Origin: Roseofilum halophilum BLCC-M91
GTDB taxonomy: Bacteria > Cyanobacteriota > Cyanobacteriia > Cyanobacteriales > Desertifilaceae
NCBI RefSeq assembly: GCF_030068445.1
Contig: NZ_JAQPOK010000076.1
Span: forward strand, 1 to 44,679
Direction: 5' to 3'
DNA: 44,679 nt
How positions within the stretch are numbered: the first letter of the stretch is position 1; every line of letters begins with the position of its first letter. The translations under genes were made by a program, and so were the position numbers. The notes below the pieces were generated by a model. That model was not told where the DNA came from and made no database searches. It saw only the letters and a program-made list of their open reading frames with translations. Below, one piece after another: positions 19,649 to 26,174 of this stretch.

Positions 19649-20311
19649 TTACAACAGACCGCGATAACGGATAAAAACCAGAATCACTGCCCACGATCCT
19701 AAAGCAACTTTCAGGGCGACTAAAATATTCAAAAAGGGAATAATTCCACCGCTTACGAGTGTACCTAACTCTCCTTGGGGTAGTTCTAGACCAACTAACG
19801 TAATGGCAGCTAAGACAATAAAGATTAAAACCGAGACCTTTTCCCAGGTGGAGGCTTTCCAACGCTCATAAATCTGTTCCATCCATTCTGACGGCGAAGT
19901 AATGGCAATTAAACCGATCGCCGTTCCCCCTGCAACACCAGCCGCAAATCCTCCTCCTGGACTCAGATGGCCGCGAATAGCCAACTCAATACAGACTAAA
20001 GCAGAGATAGTTGCCCCTAAACGAGCTAAAACAATCGAGGGTTGGTCGGTAAACTGGCGCACCATGGCTGAGGGTTGCTCATTGGCTAATAAGAATTTTG
20101 CGCCCATAATGGCGATCGTAAACACCACCACCTCAAAGATCGTATCGTAGAGCCGATTTCTAAAAATAATGCCTGAAACCGCATTCGGCACGCCACTATC
20201 TTGAACCACCAACTCCACCATGGAGATTTCTAAACCCTCCAATGTCGGATTTTTCATCACCAACATTTTCACTAAAAAAATCAGCCCTGCTGCCAAATAA
20301 AGCCATTTCAT
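19649..20311 (-). CDS. mrpB: Mrp-type cation/proton antiporter subunit B (MnhB-like)
   Basis: This 220-residue membrane protein carries the MnhB signature: NRLYDTIFEVVVFTIAIMGA (about 51-70) and RGHLSPGGGFAAGVAGG (about 113-129). Six or so hydrophobic helices are visible. MrpB is an essential small subunit of the multi-subunit Na+(Ca2+)/H+ antiporter in the cytoplasmic membrane. It is the last gene of the minus-strand cluster, 39 bp after the mrpA C-terminal-domain gene. The family's usual B subunit is about 140 residues; this one has extra N-terminal helices, as is common when part of the MrpA tail is fused or relocated. Confidence 0.85.
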   Translation of the reverse strand: MKWLYLAAGLIFLVKMLVMKNPTLEGLEISMVELVVQDSGVPNAVSGIIFRNRLYDTIFEVVVFTIAIMGAKFLLANEQPSAMVRQFTDQPSIVLARLGATISALVCIELAIRGHLSPGGGFAAGVAGGTAIGLIAITSPSEWMEQIYERWKASTWEKVSVLIFIVLAAITLVGLELPQGELGTLVSGGIIPFLNILVALKVALGSWAVILVFIRYRGLL

Positions 20312-20350: not shown

Positions 20351-20902
20351 TTAAGATCTCTTTTCAAGGCTAGGCATAGATAAACTGGTGACCTCATTAG
20401 GTAACTCCGTCTGCATAATTTCATAAAGCCGTTCTACCCGAATCGTCGTATGATAGGGTTTTGCCGTTTTCTCCTCTCCAGAAGGAATACAAGTGGCGTG
20501 AATTTCCTTATCGATCAGGGCCCGATCCAGGCTTGTGCGATCGCCATAGGAAACCAAATCGAGGCGCATATGATATTTATCCAACGTCTGCTGTAAGCCA
20601 TCCATCAAAGCTTCAAACTGGGGATTTTTCTCATCTATGCCCTCAGAAATCATCCCCAAACGCATCACCAAAGACGATCGCACCGCTACCGCATATAAAG
20701 TAATAGCCAGCATTGTCCCTACCAGAGCCTCAGTCAAGGCCACATCTGCCCCACCCAGCACGGCATAGACTAGGGCGGCTACTGCTCCCAAGATCCCCCG
20801 AATCACCAACGCATGATAGGGATTCTTCTGAAGAACAACTAGACCGGCAGCCAATGGCAACAGGGCGATAATTAATAACGTCGAGATATCAGTCGTCATC
20901 AT
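20351..20902 (-). CDS. MrpA C-terminal-domain-type subunit (DUF4040)
   Basis: Starting at the ATG at 20902, the 183-residue product has an N-terminal membrane part with GILGAVAALVYAVLGGADVALTEALVGTML (about 35-64), the DUF4040/MbhD signature found at the C-terminal end of large MrpA proteins. A soluble tail of about 100 residues follows. The NuoL-like antiporter part of MrpA is absent and no frame upstream encodes it. The gene overlaps mrpG by 14 bases (20889-20902), implying translational coupling. It is a stand-alone MrpA-tail subunit of the cyanobacterial Mrp complex. Confidence 0.82.
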   Translation of the reverse strand: MMTTDISTLLIIALLPLAAGLVVLQKNPYHALVIRGILGAVAALVYAVLGGADVALTEALVGTMLAITLYAVAVRSSLVMRLGMISEGIDEKNPQFEALMDGLQQTLDKYHMRLDLVSYGDRTSLDRALIDKEIHATCIPSGEEKTAKPYHTTIRVERLYEIMQTELPNEVTSLSMPSLEKRS

Positions 20903-21167
20903 TCCCCCCACTGGAACAATAGGCCAACACATATCCCAACACGGTATTCCAAATCGCTAGAGAAATAATGCCCAACACCAGTAATGGCCATTCCCTGGGA
21001 ATTTGGAGCAACAAACCGATAATCATACTCATAGAACCCAAAGTATCCGCGACCGAAAGACTATGGAGTTTAAACAAAACGGAGCGATCGCCCACTAGAG
21101 GCCAAGTGCCCCAAAACCAGAACACGATTCCCACGCCCATACAGACATAACTCAAGGTTGTAATCAT
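20889..21167 (-). CDS. mrpG: Mrp antiporter subunit G (MnhG/PhaG-like)
   Basis: This 92-residue protein has three hydrophobic helices and the family pattern of a short loop FKLHSLSVADTLG (about 32-44) followed by GLLLQIPREWPLLVLGIISLAIWN. MrpG is a small structural subunit needed for assembly of the antiporter. Its ATG at 21167 overlaps the mrpF stop by four bases (ATGA), and its own end overlaps the next gene by 14 bases. Confidence 0.88.
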   Translation of the reverse strand: MITTLSYVCMGVGIVFWFWGTWPLVGDRSVLFKLHSLSVADTLGSMSMIIGLLLQIPREWPLLVLGIISLAIWNTVLGYVLAYCSSGGNDDD

Positions 21168-21415
21168 TCTTCCCCCATCCGTTTAATCACATGGGCTAAT
21201 AACATTAAGGCCGCATTGCCCACGCTTAAAATAATCACCCCTACCACCCCAATCATCCAATCATCCCGCAACACCGAGACAATTAAGATCATCATCGAGG
21301 TTTTGGTGGCAATACTGGCAAAGGCCAACATTTTCTGCCAAATATTATCATCCTGGCAAGCCTCATATAGGGGAATTAACAGGGCAAAAATCATTAAAAC
21401 CAAAATTATCGTCAT
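21164..21415 (-). CDS. mrpF: Mrp antiporter subunit F (MnhF-like)
   Basis: An 83-residue, three-helix membrane protein. It fits MnhF by size, by position between E and G, and by the ASIATKTSMMILIVSVLRDDWMIGVVGVIILSVGNAAL stretch typical of the family (written here as one conserved block at about residues 33-70). It starts at 21415 with a 4-base overlap with mrpE and ends with a 4-base overlap with mrpG. Confidence 0.8.
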   Translation of the reverse strand: MTIILVLMIFALLIPLYEACQDDNIWQKMLAFASIATKTSMMILIVSVLRDDWMIGVVGVIILSVGNAALMLLAHVIKRMGEE

Positions 21416-21801
21416 CTGCTTTTCCTCCGTCTCACCCAGTGAACTTCATACCACCCCCTAGCCTGATACCTGACGACGATGGTTTTGGGGGTAAAAGTAA
21501 TTAAGAAAATATCTAAAAAGATTAATCCGGGAGTGCGGTTGGGTTTGACCTGCTCTAGGGTCGTCTCTTCTTCTTGATGGGGGCGCACCATCAACTCGAT
21601 CGCCTCCTTGTAAGCGATGGGAATGGCGACTAGAATCTCCCACAGAGCATGTAACCAATCTTTTAAAACGGCTGGCGCAGTCACCGATCGCGGTAAGAGC
21701 AAAGCCACAGCAACGCCAATAATAATATTGGCCCGGCTCACATCGGAAGTGAGCAGAAACCAGATGGTCAATCGTAGTATTAGATCCAGGTATCCAATCA
21801 T
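21412..21801 (-). CDS. mrpE: Mrp antiporter subunit E (MnhE-like)
   Basis: A 129-residue protein with two N-terminal helices (about 5-35), WEILVAIPIAYKEAIELM in the middle and a C-terminal soluble part with TPGLIFLDIFLITFTPKTIVV, which is the MnhE pattern of a membrane anchor followed by a cytoplasmic domain. Its first eight bases (TGATTGGA around the start) recur after the other mrpD copy at 23456-23463, marking the downstream edge of the tandem duplication. It overlaps mrpD and mrpF by four bases each. Confidence 0.85.
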   Translation of the reverse strand: MIGYLDLILRLTIWFLLTSDVSRANIIIGVAVALLLPRSVTAPAVLKDWLHALWEILVAIPIAYKEAIELMVRPHQEEETTLEQVKPNRTPGLIFLDIFLITFTPKTIVVRYQARGWYEVHWVRRRKSR

Positions 21802-23237
21802 GGCAAGACCATCCAGAACAGCAGCAACAACATTAAACTCATCATCCCCATGAGATGGTCAAAGTGTTCGAGCATCCGAGGCAGTTTGACCATTGACTGG
21901 CGAAAGATGAGAAAGTAGGCGAGCCAACCCAGGGCGATCGTGGCCAGGGGTTTAACAATGTTGGCTAGGGTATAGGCTTGATAATAAACCACGTTTGCAC
22001 CCACAAGTCCACCGATTAAGACTACCACGGCTAACCAAAAGCCAATCGATTGTTTTTTATCTCCCTCTTTTGCCGCTCTATGGGGCAAAAAGATCAGTTT
22101 AGCGAAGGAAATGGCAGTTCCCAAGGCGGCGATATTCATGCCGATGACTTGCCAAGGGAGCAGGGTTTTCATGGTGAGGACTTTTGCGCCAAAACCAGCC
22201 AGCAGGGGAAAACCGGAGATGGAGAAACTCGCCAGGGTAAGGGCAATCCACATGGGATTGGGAATGGGTTTCTGTTTCAATTCTTTCAGGTTCCGACTGG
22301 GTAAATTGCCTCCAATTAGGAAGAGAGCGGATTTCACCAATCCGTGGGTGAGGGCGTAGAAGCCTCCCACTTCGGGGGCTGCAAGGATAAAGCCCAATTG
22401 GGAAATGGTGTGAAAGGCTAACATGCGTTTGATATCTTTTTCAAACACGGCATAGCCCACTCCTAATACAGCCGTTCCCACGCCAAAGAAGCGCACAATG
22501 GGGTCAATATCTTCTAACATCAGGGCACAGCGCACTAGGGGAAAGACTCCTGTTTTCACCACAACTCCTGAGAGCAGGGCAGAAACGGGGCTTTCTGATT
22601 CTGAGTGGGTGAGGGGTAACCAGAGTCCGGAAATAAAGATCCCCCCTTTAGCCAGCAGTCCCAGAAAGATCAGGGCGATCGCCTCCGTGGGAGCATTGGT
22701 TAGGCCCGCAAAAGCAAAGGAGTTGTTGGCTTTATACACTAGGATCGTTCCCACCAAGTAGAAGAGCATGGCTACATTACTGACAAAGAGATAACGTAGA
22801 CCGACCCAAATTGAGCGATCGCTCCTCGGATAAGCAATCAGCAGAAATGAGGCGATGCTAATCACTTCTAAGGCCACATAGACACTGAGGAAGTCGGCAC
22901 AGATAAAGACTGAGTTTACGCTGCCCTGTAAGATAGTGAGCTGAGTATAAAAGAATGGAGTTTTATTACTGCGCCAACAGTAGAGCAGCACTGCCGCACA
23001 GACTAGGGCATTGGTTAATATAAAGAAACCACTTTGCTCATCGATGAGTAGGGTAACACCAAAACTATCGAGCAGTTCTAGGGGAGTCGCTTCCGGTTGT
23101 CGAAACACAAATGTGGCATAGGCAACGGAGACTAGGGTGACTCCAAAGGCTAGAAACCAATCTAGTCTCGGTAGGAGGTAAATCCCGAATCCGACAATAA
23201 AGGGAAGAATAAGCCAGGCGATGGTTAAAATAGTCAT
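21798..23237 (-). CDS. mrpD: Mrp antiporter subunit D, downstream copy (NuoM/N-like)
   Basis: This 479-residue protein of the NuoL/M/N proton-translocating family has about 14 helices. The residues expected for proton movement are present: E124 (VALEVIS), K197 (LLAKGG) and K228 (VVVKTG), plus the PLTHSESESPVSALLSG loop. It is about 90% identical to the upstream copy at 23461-24900, with no gaps. Cyanobacterial clusters such as slr2006-slr2012 of Synechocystis also carry two such genes, annotated ndhD5 and ndhD6 there; MrpD rather than NDH-1 membership follows from the flanking mrp genes. Its ATG at 23237 overlaps the stop of the mrpC remnant by four bases. Confidence 0.9.
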   Translation of the reverse strand: MTILTIAWLILPFIVGFGIYLLPRLDWFLAFGVTLVSVAYATFVFRQPEATPLELLDSFGVTLLIDEQSGFFILTNALVCAAVLLYCWRSNKTPFFYTQLTILQGSVNSVFICADFLSVYVALEVISIASFLLIAYPRSDRSIWVGLRYLFVSNVAMLFYLVGTILVYKANNSFAFAGLTNAPTEAIALIFLGLLAKGGIFISGLWLPLTHSESESPVSALLSGVVVKTGVFPLVRCALMLEDIDPIVRFFGVGTAVLGVGYAVFEKDIKRMLAFHTISQLGFILAAPEVGGFYALTHGLVKSALFLIGGNLPSRNLKELKQKPIPNPMWIALTLASFSISGFPLLAGFGAKVLTMKTLLPWQVIGMNIAALGTAISFAKLIFLPHRAAKEGDKKQSIGFWLAVVVLIGGLVGANVVYYQAYTLANIVKPLATIALGWLAYFLIFRQSMVKLPRMLEHFDHLMGMMSLMLLLLFWMVLP

Positions 23238-23329
23238 AGTGTATAGTTTTTCGCGATCGCCAGGTTTTTTTTCAGGATAATGCTGGAAAATCCAAGGAAT
23301 AGGGGGATTAGGATACAGGCTTCTAACAT
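23234..23329 (-). pseudogene. mrpC remnant: in-frame internal deletion, 31 codons
   Basis: On the minus strand an ATG at 23329 opens 31 codons. Residues 1-23 (MLEACILIPLFLGFSS..., KKNL) match the start of intact MrpC (MLETCILITLLLGFFG..., KKNL), and the last eight (AIAKNYTL) match its end (AIEKNYTP). About 80 codons between them are gone and the frame is kept. It still overlaps mrpD by four bases, as intact mrpC does. It may survive only as a leader that couples translation into mrpD. The sequence further upstream (to about 23418) also matches the region upstream of intact mrpC. Confidence 0.85.
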
Positions 23330-23438
23330 CAACAGGGCTTACGGGGTCAGGGGTATGGGCTATGCTCTGGAAAGCTCTTTATAAAGAATACACAATTTCC
23401 GGTCTTTGAAAACCATCAATCTCTTAAGTCCACTAATC

Positions 23439-23459
23439 TGGAGATCTTCGAGATCTCCA
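23439..23459 (-). terminator. Perfect hairpin just after the upstream mrpD copy
   Basis: TGGAGATCT, loop TCG, AGATCTCCA forms a perfect 9-bp stem one base after the mrpD stop. No T-run follows in the direction of transcription, so it is more likely a processing or partial attenuation site within the operon than a full terminator. It lies exactly at the duplication junction. Confidence 0.4.
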
Positions 23460-23460
23460 A

Positions 23461-24900
23461 TCAGGGTAAGACCATCCAGAACAGCAGCAAAAGCATTAAA
23501 CTCATCATCCCCATCAGGTGGTCAAACTGTTCGAGCATCCGGGGGAGTCTGACGGTTGTCTGGCGCAAGATGAGCAAGTAGACGAGCCAACCGAGGGCAA
23601 TAGTTGCGAGAGGTTTGACGATGTTGGCTAGGGTATAAGCTTGATAATAGAAGGCACTCACGCCCATGAGTCCACCGATTAAGATCGCGATCGCCAACCA
23701 GAAACCGATCGATTTCTTTTTACCGCCCTCTTCTAATCGTTCATGGGGTAAAAAGATTAATTTTCCATACATACTTGCTGTTCCCAAAGCAGCAATATTC
23801 ATGGCGATCGTTTGCCAAGGCAGAAGGTTTTTCATCGTCAGGACTTTCGCCCCAAAACCCGAGAGCAAGGGAAAGCCAGAGATGGAGAAACTCGCCAAGG
23901 TGAGGGCGATCCACAGAGAATTCGGCATCGGGTTATGTTGCAATTCTTTTAGGTTCCGACTCGGTAAATTTCCCCCAATTAGGAAGAGGGTCGATTTGAC
24001 CAGCCCATGGGTAAGGGCGTAGAAGCCTCCCACTTCGGGAGCAGCCAGAATAAAGCCCAATTGAGAAATGGTACTGAGGGCTAACATGCGCTTAATATCT
24101 TGCTCAAATACGGCATAACTGACTCCTAATAGGGCAGTGCCTACACCAAAGAAGCGCACAATGGGGTCAATATCTTCTAACATCAGGGCACAGCGAACCA
24201 GGGGAAAGACTCCAGTTTTCACCACCACGCCTGAGAGTAGGGCGGAAACTGGAGTTTCTGATTCTGAGTGGGTGAGGGGTAACCAGAGTCCGGATATAAA
24301 GATACCGCCTTTGGCCAGCAGTCCCAAAAAGATTAGGGCGATCGCCTCCGTGGGAGCATTGGTGAGGCCCCCAAAAGCAAAGGAGTTGTTGGCTTTATAC
24401 ACTAGGACAGTTCCCACCAAGTAAAATAGCATGGCCACATTACTGACAAAGAGATAGCGCAATCCTACCCAGATTACCCGATCGCTTCTCGAATAAGTAA
24501 TCAACAAAAACGCGGCGATGCTAATCACTTCTAAGGCCACATAGACACTGAGAAAATCAGCACAGATAAAGACTGAGTTTACACTGCCCTGTAAGATCGT
24601 GAGCTGGGTATAAAAAAATGGAGTTTTATTACTGCGCCAACAGTAGAGCAGCACAGCCGTACAGACGAAGGCATTAGTGAGGATAAAGAAGGCACTTTGG
24701 CGATCGGCCATCAGGGTAACGCCAAAACTATCGAGCAGTTCCAGGGCAATGGGTTCCGGTTGCCGAAACACAAACGTAGCATAGGCAAAAGAGACTAGGG
24801 TTACCCCAAAAGCCAGAACCCAATCTAGTCTCGGTAGGAGGTAAATCCCTAATCCGACAATAAACGGAAGAATAAGCCAGGCGATCGTCAGGATGGTCAT
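23461..24900 (-). CDS. mrpD: Mrp antiporter subunit D, upstream copy (NuoM/N-like)
   Basis: This second 479-residue NuoM/N-like antiporter keeps E124, K197 and K228 and is about 90% identical to the downstream copy. Differences are scattered substitutions, so both copies look functional. Its start at 24900 overlaps the intact mrpC stop by four bases. Because the NuoL-like part of MrpA is missing from the cluster, the two D subunits may together form the pair of ion-translocating modules that A and D provide in bacterial Mrp; this is inference. The TGATTGGA at its end matches the mrpE start region, a trace of the duplication. Confidence 0.9.
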   Translation of the reverse strand: MTILTIAWLILPFIVGLGIYLLPRLDWVLAFGVTLVSFAYATFVFRQPEPIALELLDSFGVTLMADRQSAFFILTNAFVCTAVLLYCWRSNKTPFFYTQLTILQGSVNSVFICADFLSVYVALEVISIAAFLLITYSRSDRVIWVGLRYLFVSNVAMLFYLVGTVLVYKANNSFAFGGLTNAPTEAIALIFLGLLAKGGIFISGLWLPLTHSESETPVSALLSGVVVKTGVFPLVRCALMLEDIDPIVRFFGVGTALLGVSYAVFEQDIKRMLALSTISQLGFILAAPEVGGFYALTHGLVKSTLFLIGGNLPSRNLKELQHNPMPNSLWIALTLASFSISGFPLLSGFGAKVLTMKNLLPWQTIAMNIAALGTASMYGKLIFLPHERLEEGGKKKSIGFWLAIAILIGGLMGVSAFYYQAYTLANIVKPLATIALGWLVYLLILRQTTVRLPRMLEQFDHLMGMMSLMLLLLFWMVLP

Positions 24901-25232
24901 GGTGTATAGTTTTTCTCGATCGCCTTCGTTTCTAAGGTTGGGTTATCTTTTGCCAGTTTCATCACCCCCACAAGCATCAGCGCTTGAATGGAAAAGCCGA
25001 TTACAATTGCCGTTAAAATCACCGCTTGGGGAACCGGATCGGCATACTCAACGGTTTTAGTTTCATCTAAAATGGGCGTAAACAGCCCCTCTCGTGAGGC
25101 GATCAAAATATAGTAGGCGATCACTCCGGTACTCATCACGTCCATGGAGATAATCTTCATTACCAGGTTCTTTTTCAGGATAATACCGAAAAATCCCAGC
25201 AATAGGGTGATTAGGATACAGGTTTCTAACAT
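24897..25232 (-). CDS. mrpC: Mrp antiporter subunit C (NuoK-like)
   Basis: The start is the ATG at 25232 (MLETCILITLLLG), giving 111 residues, the normal size for MrpC; an upstream extension to 25280 would read through a GGGGAATGGG repeat and is rejected. Three helices are visible, with the NuoK/MrpC pattern MKIISMDVMSTGVIAYYIL (about 25-43) and DPVPQAVILTAIVIGFSIQALML (about 67-89). It is the first gene of the operon and overlaps mrpD by four bases. It is divergent from the DALR-domain gene, so the operon promoter should lie in 25233-25394. Confidence 0.9.
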   Translation of the reverse strand: MLETCILITLLLGFFGIILKKNLVMKIISMDVMSTGVIAYYILIASREGLFTPILDETKTVEYADPVPQAVILTAIVIGFSIQALMLVGVMKLAKDNPTLETKAIEKNYTP

Positions 25233-25394
25233 CAAAGGGGAATGGGGGAATGGGGAATGGGCACAAGGAGATGACTCCATGACTCCCGGCTCCTGGAAAA
25301 GCTCTTTCTCTTTCTAAAGAATACACAATTTTTTGCCCTTGAAAACCATCAGCACCTTCAGTCAACAGTAAGGAAAACCATTGGTTATCATCAA

Positions 25395-26174
25395 ATGAAA
25401 CAGAGTCTGCAAGTAGCCATTCATCAGGGAATCGAAGCATCCTTCGCCGGTTTAAGCTGGGAGCAGATCCCGGTGGAACTGTTGCCAGAGCATCAACCGT
25501 TAGGCTATCAATCGGCGATCGCCCTGAAATTATCAGCCTACAGCGATCGCCCTCCTGTCGATCTGGCAGAAGAACTGCTTGAGTTCCTCTCTGTTCAAGA
25601 GCATTTATCCGGGTTTTCCCTCTCTCTACGTTCTCCCGGTTGGATTCAATTTCATTATGGCGATCTCGCTTTAGTCAAGCAACTGCAAGCTCTGCCGCTC
25701 ACTCCCTTAACCCTTGCCCATCATACCCCCTTCGTCGATCCCCATTCCCCAGAAGTATTGACCTGGCAAGTTGCCCATGCTCGCTGTTGTGCCCTCCTAC
25801 GTTTAGCAGAGCATGGGGGCTTAATTGCTCTAGAACCATCTACATTAAAGATCGTCCAACCTCATCCCATACCTTGGTTAGATGGCGGCTACTTTCAACT
25901 CGTTCACCCCAGCGAACACACCTTAATCCGCTCCCTACTCTATATCTGGGATACTCTCCATGACGAGCCTACCGCCTCGCGCCTTTTGTCCTTAACTCGA
26001 ACCTTAAGTCAAGATATCCTGAGATTTGAGCAAAATTGCCGCATTTGGGGATCGACATTAAAGGAAAATCCCCCACTTTCCCTCAGTCGTTTAGGATTAT
26101 TGGCCATGGGCGGAAAAACCCTAAAAACCTTACTAGAACAAGGCTTAACCCTGAGTGCCCCCCCAGAATGGTAA
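25395..26174 (+). CDS. DALR anticodon-binding-domain protein (ArgRS-related, no catalytic core)
   Basis: A 259-residue soluble protein. The N-terminal part (AIALKLSAYSDRPPVDLAEELLEFL) resembles the additional N-terminal domain of arginyl-tRNA synthetase, and the C-terminal half (LTWQVAHARCCALLRLAEHGG onward, about 122-255) resembles the DALR anticodon-binding domain. There is no HIGH or KMSKS motif, so it cannot activate an amino acid. Cyanobacterial homologues are annotated only as DALR-domain proteins. A role in tRNA binding is inferred from the fold. It is divergent from mrpC. Confidence 0.72.
   Translation: MKQSLQVAIHQGIEASFAGLSWEQIPVELLPEHQPLGYQSAIALKLSAYSDRPPVDLAEELLEFLSVQEHLSGFSLSLRSPGWIQFHYGDLALVKQLQALPLTPLTLAHHTPFVDPHSPEVLTWQVAHARCCALLRLAEHGGLIALEPSTLKIVQPHPIPWLDGGYFQLVHPSEHTLIRSLLYIWDTLHDEPTASRLLSLTRTLSQDILRFEQNCRIWGSTLKENPPLSLSRLGLLAMGGKTLKTLLEQGLTLSAPPEW

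Follow-up and report, generated by a model that had tools for sequence, protein, structure and literature searches.

The canonical Mrp antiporter combines two antiporter-like subunits (MrpA and MrpD) with one MrpC. Cyanobacterial group 3 mrp operons, in turn, have two mrpD genes and one or two mrpC genes ahead of mrpEFG and of split A and B genes. In the available part of PMC5703873, the Synechocystis operon (mrpCDCDEFGBB) is cited as belonging to this group, like that of Aphanothece halophytica (mrpCD1D2EFGAB), which has a single mrpC and for which Na+/H+ antiporter activity has been reported; in the same source, MrpC is described as having three membrane segments. The other described systems close to the locus are those of termination-reinitiation at ATGA, where a short upstream coding stretch, with its stop overlapping the next start, links subunits of one complex (PMC6728339 and PMC10666635, in their available parts). 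In E. coli, termination-reinitiation requires no more than the final 15 nt of the upstream gene, and coupling is almost lost when gaps reach about 20 nt (PMC10666635). In cyanobacteria, few gene pairs overlap (<10%), about 40% of these carrying a Shine-Dalgarno motif, which is rare at fresh starts and commoner at overlaps (PMC6728339). Among the open-access papers listed by literature searches, none dealt with a truncated mrpC serving as leader.

The window, i.e. the whole stretch of DNA analysed (44,679 nucleotides), corresponds to contig C76 of a draft genome (4.85 Mb, 169 contigs) and carries on its minus strand an mrp operon in the order mrpC, mrpD1, a 31-codon frame, mrpD2, mrpE, mrpF, mrpG, a short mrpA and mrpB (Table 1). 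Compared with the group 3 operons, the window is intermediate, since its second mrpC has been cut to 31 codons and is neither whole nor gone. Compared with the known ATGA systems, its upstream frame is a broken paralogue whose product is unlikely to function, and coupling is here a prediction. The genes which we take to be mrpE and mrpF matched no Pfam family in the profile search of the window proteins. The region between mrpD1 and the remnant is called promoter-like on the grounds of conservation only, since a consensus promoter (sigma-70) scan of 23200-25500 gave no match on the operon strand.

Table 1. Features of the mrp operon in the window
Feature	Position	Strand	Remarks
mrpC, first copy, intact	24897..25232	(-)	111 aa; NuoK/4L-like; Pfam PF00420, E 5.7e-23
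mrpD1	23461..24900	(-)	479 aa; PF00361; start overlaps mrpC by ATGA
Spacer mrpD1–remnant	23330..23460	(-)	second copy of the operon's upstream, promoter-like region; contains AAATTGTGTATTCTT block
mrpC remnant, 31 codons	23234..23329	(-)	23 N-terminal + 8 C-terminal codons
Deletion junction	23259..23262	(-)	240 bp lost; 2-bp GG ambiguity
ATGA stop/start overlap, remnant and mrpD2	23234..23237	(-)	
mrpD2	21798..23237	(-)	479 aa; 84.3% nt identity to mrpD1
mrpE (presumed)	21412..21801	(-)	gene order and similarity to relatives
mrpF (presumed)	21164..21415	(-)	gene order and similarity to relatives
mrpG	20889..21167	(-)	PF03334
Short 'mrpA', MbhD-like part only	20351..20932	(-)	PF13244
mrpB, MnhB domain	19649..20311	(-)	PF04039

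The 31-codon frame translates as MLEACILIPLFLGFSSIILKKNLAIAKNYTL*, 24 of its 31 residues being identical to those of intact MrpC. An earlier note on this DNA had described it as the first 23 and last 8 codons of mrpC, joined without loss of frame and with start, stop and the 4-base overlap with mrpD retained, and this description holds in full: with 96 nt in the remnant and 336 nt in intact mrpC, exactly 240 nt are absent, the frame opens on ATG and its final 4 nt (ATGA) overlap the start of mrpD2. The position of the junction is ambiguous over 2 bp because GG is common to both sides. The remnant was found with the MrpC protein query of its own genome (E = 2.9e-4), in a match that extends beyond the remnant stop, and homology to the intact mrpC locus reaches about 90 bp 5' of its start codon, into the copied promoter-like region; therefore, its likeness to mrpC is not due to chance. 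Chance or artefact is rejected as a full explanation, given that the homology extends upstream and is present on either side of the junction. In the alignment, the AAATTGTGTATTCTT block of the spacer is common to the operon-upstream regions of relatives. The remnant frame matched no Pfam family in the profile search, PF00420 included, whereas its intact neighbour did. Lacking 80 of the 111 MrpC residues, it would, judging from its length, be too short for the three membrane segments of MrpC, and it retains a start, a stop and one hydrophobic stretch. Its homology to an intact paralogue, together with an intact counterpart in the close relative G006, is what a duplicated-gene remnant displays, and an open ATG-to-ATGA frame whose stop overlaps the next start has the layout of a coupling leader. 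We regard it as a deletion remnant and probably a translated coupling leader.

The earlier note had also placed the junction where a HIP1-like sequence was created, and this proved mistaken. The first seven bases (GCGATCG) of the GCGATCGC octamer near the junction are already present in the intact mrpC tail, and the eighth arose in the remnant by a GAG to GCG substitution. An octamer at both parental breakpoints, or one made by the junction, was looked for, and the left parental breakpoint holds no GCGATCGC; a HIP1-mediated deletion is rejected on these grounds. The window contains 58 such octamers (1.3 per kb), so that one near the junction is unremarkable.

The origin of the remnant was addressed by a family search of nine other genomes, five of them of the same genus as the window. 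Within Roseofilum, G006 has the order C1-D1-C2-D2-EFGAB with both mrpC whole (111 codons each), G005 and G007 have a single mrpC and a single mrpD, and G008 and G009 have the order C-D-E-F-G-D'-A-B; the remnant allele is carried by one of the six genomes of the genus, that of the window. Since the gene order of G006 is the same and neither of its mrpC is shortened, the best reading is that a C-D unit was duplicated and its second mrpC then suffered an internal deletion, which supports the in-frame deletion history put forward in the earlier note. The trees comprised ten and eight sequences, in which the placement of the remnant is weak (0.71). As a separate observation (24897-25400 in the window; L094 1200-3700), the first mrpC of the window is identical at 306 of 333 nt to the second mrpC of G006 and at 278 of 333 to the first, with dS values of 0.354 and 0.689, respectively, and its upstream region, with a CCCATTCCCCATTCCC insert, is also nearer to the second unit of G006. 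This closeness may point to an exchange, or to gene conversion, involving both C-D units. In G008 and G009 (L096 and L097), moreover, the extra mrpD follows a short mrpC tail in the interval from mrpG to mrpA, and a second match to the end of mrpG stands directly before mrpA, an arrangement which is perhaps another tandem-duplication scar.

As regards the dispensability of a second mrpC, MrpC matches (E <= 1e-6) were present in at least 242 of the 388 genomes of the class, with two matches in 7 of those 242 among the matches listed, a cut-off which would miss diverged second copies. At the level of the order, about 46 of 223 genomes with a close mrpD match had two or three among the matches listed, a few of these being fragments of a single gene. 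Loss of the second mrpC is not universal, since two recognisable copies persist in G006, L127 and L130, and also in L006 and L012, where the first copy is diverged. As the MrpA of the window is short, two MrpD and one MrpC would, we infer, restore the canonical subunit count.

The account which we favour, and in which we have modest confidence, combines a tandem C-D duplication, the in-frame loss of 240 bp and the use of the remnant as a translated coupling leader for mrpD2. The upstream region, mrpC and mrpD would have been duplicated in tandem in a Roseofilum ancestor, after which the redundant second mrpC would have lost 240 bp by a single in-frame deletion in the lineage of the window. Ribosomes would enter the remnant at the old mrpC start, read through to its TGA and, having stopped there, reinitiate at the mrpD2 ATG that overlaps it; the translation of the remnant and the dependence of mrpD2 on it are both inferred. 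The remnant would thus be a disposable leader. Its peptide, made up of MrpC's first hydrophobic stretch and a short tail, probably has no function of its own, and one mrpC would serve two mrpD proteins, like in the known mrpCD1D2EFGAB operon. Both mrpD starts overlap the preceding frame, and both genes are strongly constrained, with dN/dS values of 0.075 (mrpD1) and 0.070 (mrpD2) against their counterparts in G006; 420 of their 480 codons (stop counted) have the same translation. The copied upstream region could permit a separate expression of mrpD2, which counts against coupling, and no Shine-Dalgarno motif was seen by eye before mrpD2. A stem-loop at the start codon was rejected as coupling device, since folds around mrpD2 were no better than those of shuffled sequences (z -0.71 and -0.24; -0.84 for the intact mrpC-mrpD1 junction). 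Pairing between the mrpC tail and the 5' codons of mrpD was -11.6 in cis against -10.8 kcal/mol between genomes (43 junctions, p 0.016), a slight advantage which, with relatedness and base composition uncontrolled, is not counted as support.

Three other explanations have to be weighed against this one. The earlier note had suggested that the mini-protein itself, with its one helix, may have a role; such a peptide would join or regulate the Mrp complex, and we consider this most improbable. The retained start, stop and hydrophobic stretch agree with such a role, as does the compatibility of the data with a mildly constrained dN/dS of 0.3 (P 0.15, or 0.23 without the change on the intact side), but the remnant differs from its own intact paralogue by seven non-synonymous and three synonymous changes. 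This proportion, which fits a dN/dS of about 1, has a probability of 0.001 if dN/dS is 0.08 and of 0.017 if it is 0.15; one of the seven is probably a change of the intact mrpC itself, and without it (6/9) the values become 0.003 and 0.037. Constraint thus appears relaxed relative to intact mrpC, with only p 0.067 in a coarser Fisher test of the remnant against pooled intact copies. Moreover, T9P, F15S, G16S, E to A and P to L fall at residues common to the six other Roseofilum copies of its clade, the frame has no Pfam match, and leaders in other cyanobacteria are flat over codon positions. Even less credence is given to an assembly artefact, in which two similar C-D units would have been misjoined: the genome is indeed a draft with two mrpD genes 84% identical, but 10 of the 96 nt of the remnant, 8 of them ahead of the junction and 2 beyond it, differ from intact mrpC, and the preceding spacer has a sequence of its own, so that neither part copies the first unit.

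A more serious competitor, although in our view rather doubtful, is that of a young scar whose deletion fell in frame by luck, mrpD2 starting translation independently and the remnant decaying without a role. The frame of such a remnant would be retained by chance with a probability of 0.19-0.24 (1/3 for an in-frame deletion, multiplied by the 56-71% that stay open after 6-10 substitutions), and with roughly one such frame in five surviving by luck, the window alone cannot prove coupling. The near-neutral differences of the remnant agree with this explanation, as do the tandem mrpD genes that have no leader and the seldom use of Shine-Dalgarno by cyanobacteria for fresh starts (PMC6728339, available part). 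Relatives with frameshifts, which the earlier note had named as speaking against a retained leader, do exist to the extent that the mrpC tail before the extra mrpD of G008 has one base fewer than that of G009 and is thereby frameshifted, while the mrpD behind it is constrained (dN/dS 0.118 with G009); nevertheless, this is a different remnant and another allele. The G009 tail has 22 open codons, none of them ATG. Against a passive scar stand the overlaps of both mrpD starts in the window and, above all, six older scars which hold their frame despite indels and with no sign of peptide constraint. The earlier idea that the frame is kept for translational coupling therefore stands only in part, since in the window, a single genome, chance may explain it, and the six scars make it plausible.

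The support for coupling that comes from other cyanobacteria is, in fact, greater than that from the window. The six scars (L104, L106, L107, L108, L110 and L114) had first been spotted partly by their open frames. As a check on this bias, nucleotide homology to the L104/L106 scar was used as the sole criterion in a scan of 18 spacers with 300 shuffles. Clear homology (p <= 0.003 with at least one reference) was found in the same six, all of them in frame; L124 also matched L104, via its mrpC sequence. From a shared anchor to mrpD2, the six measure 119, 101, 116, 92, 107 and 77 nt, lengths which are all equal modulo 3, and the gaps between them are multiples of 3 (8/8 under three alignment settings and 13/13 under two). 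The leader frame runs into mrpD2 without stops, each other frame holding 1-5, and the differences, summed over all pairs, are spread over the codon positions as 189/193/191, with 20 of 44 residues changed between the L106 and L110 leaders. Pairwise identities of 43-70% make a young age of these scars less likely. They are related sequences and not six independent trials, and a hand-reckoned rule-of-thirds estimate of about 0.004 for five lengths treats relatives as independent, as does the product of the shuffle results, which is not taken as a p-value. The anchored codon is AAG in L107 and L110, GTG in L108 and ATG in the others, so that the start codon differs among scars; other in-frame starts are present in L107 and L110. 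In L114, mrpD2 is broken, with an internal TAA and a changed start, and the leader overlap has been lost. Since the frame is conserved while codon positions are flat, the six scars can be read as coupling leaders in which translation seems to have been kept and the product not.

It is possible, and we propose it tentatively, that redundant mrpC copies and duplication scars repeatedly become translated leaders of mrpD2, the frame being selected for ribosome delivery while the peptide drifts freely, with the window as a young stage and the six scars as a late one. Such genes would be conserved for their translation rather than for what they encode. The locus offers a natural test of whether the need for ribosomes to traverse a short frame can by itself account for its conservation. 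If this is true, short 'pseudogene' frames between co-translated subunit genes merit re-examination, and gene callers or dN/dS filters which discard them miss working parts of operons. It would also show a route from a two-mrpC operon to the form with one mrpC and two mrpD already known to work.

The spacers between tandem mrpD genes are of several kinds, consisting of an intact mrpC, a direct overlap of mrpD1 with mrpD2 by ATGA (L011, L038 and L105), no leader into mrpD2 (L015, L111, L112, L123, L008 and L014), or a short frame ending at mrpD2. Another 25 spacers were classified, from loci other than L008, L014 and those where an intact mrpC was recognised, or further operon genes lie, between the mrpD copies. 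A frame terminates on ATGA in 10 of them and within -8..+1 nt of mrpD2 in 8, no frame bridges the spacer in 4, and mrpD1 directly overlaps mrpD2 in 3; this set possibly includes close relatives, and the survey rests on the matches listed. ATGA by itself is weak evidence, as it needs merely an A after the start codon, and several of the eight near-start frames, among them L113, L126, L129 and L133, may be due to chance, since they begin with TTG or GTG and lack homology to mrpC. Some intact mrpC-mrpD pairs do not overlap (G007, L007 and L015), with gaps of tens to hundreds of bases in several pairs. These spaced pairs, together with the leaderless tandem spacers and the frameshifted G008 tail, indicate that coupling at mrpD2 is not obligatory.

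Sequence of the mrpC tail occurs in the spacers of a group of genomes including L106, L107, L114 and L118, and the scars before mrpD2 in L104, L106, L107, L108, L110, L114, L118 and L124 resemble the window in having a short open leader and mrpC-tail-derived sequence. They differ from it in that those with a recognisable mrpE head (L106, L110, L118 and L124) derive from the endpoints of a tandem duplication and not from a deletion within mrpC, in that the six homologous scars look much older, and in that the leaders of L106, L110 and L118 also overlap mrpD1. These three open with an mrpE head (p 0.013, 0.0008 and 0.043 against their own mrpE), and in each a single frame of 45, 47 and 20 codons, respectively, spans the entire spacer, its ATG overlapping the mrpD1 stop and its end the mrpD2 start, with ATGA at both ends. 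Such a spacer is the trace left by a tandem duplication whose endpoints lay within mrpE and mrpC. Compared with the own mrpE of each genome, the head was supported (p <= 0.044) in L109 and L124 as well as in these three and was not supported in L100 and L131, and none was recognised in the L104, L107 and L108 leaders. The scar of G090 (L124), with a clear mrpE head followed by mrpC residues 62-112 at 76% identity, is, from this structure, a younger example of the same mrpE/mrpC duplication scar. In L131, a bridging frame has a head unlike mrpE or mrpC, and the second mrpD is broken. Internal stops were also observed in mrpD copies of G126 (L131), G258 (L114), G243 (L119) and G253 (L135), so that mrpD copies decay in some genomes.

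Further rearrangements were noticed in other genomes. L099 (G003) and L102 (G059) carry an additional mrpD within mrpE-F-G, with another piece of mrpF after it. Three mrpD are present in L122 (G261), an mrpC preceding each of the last two and both mrpD-mrpD distances being 487 nt. Finally, mrpC appears as three consecutive matching pieces in L014 (1823-2473; Hydrocoleum sp. CS-953), which perhaps represent another partial duplication of mrpC.
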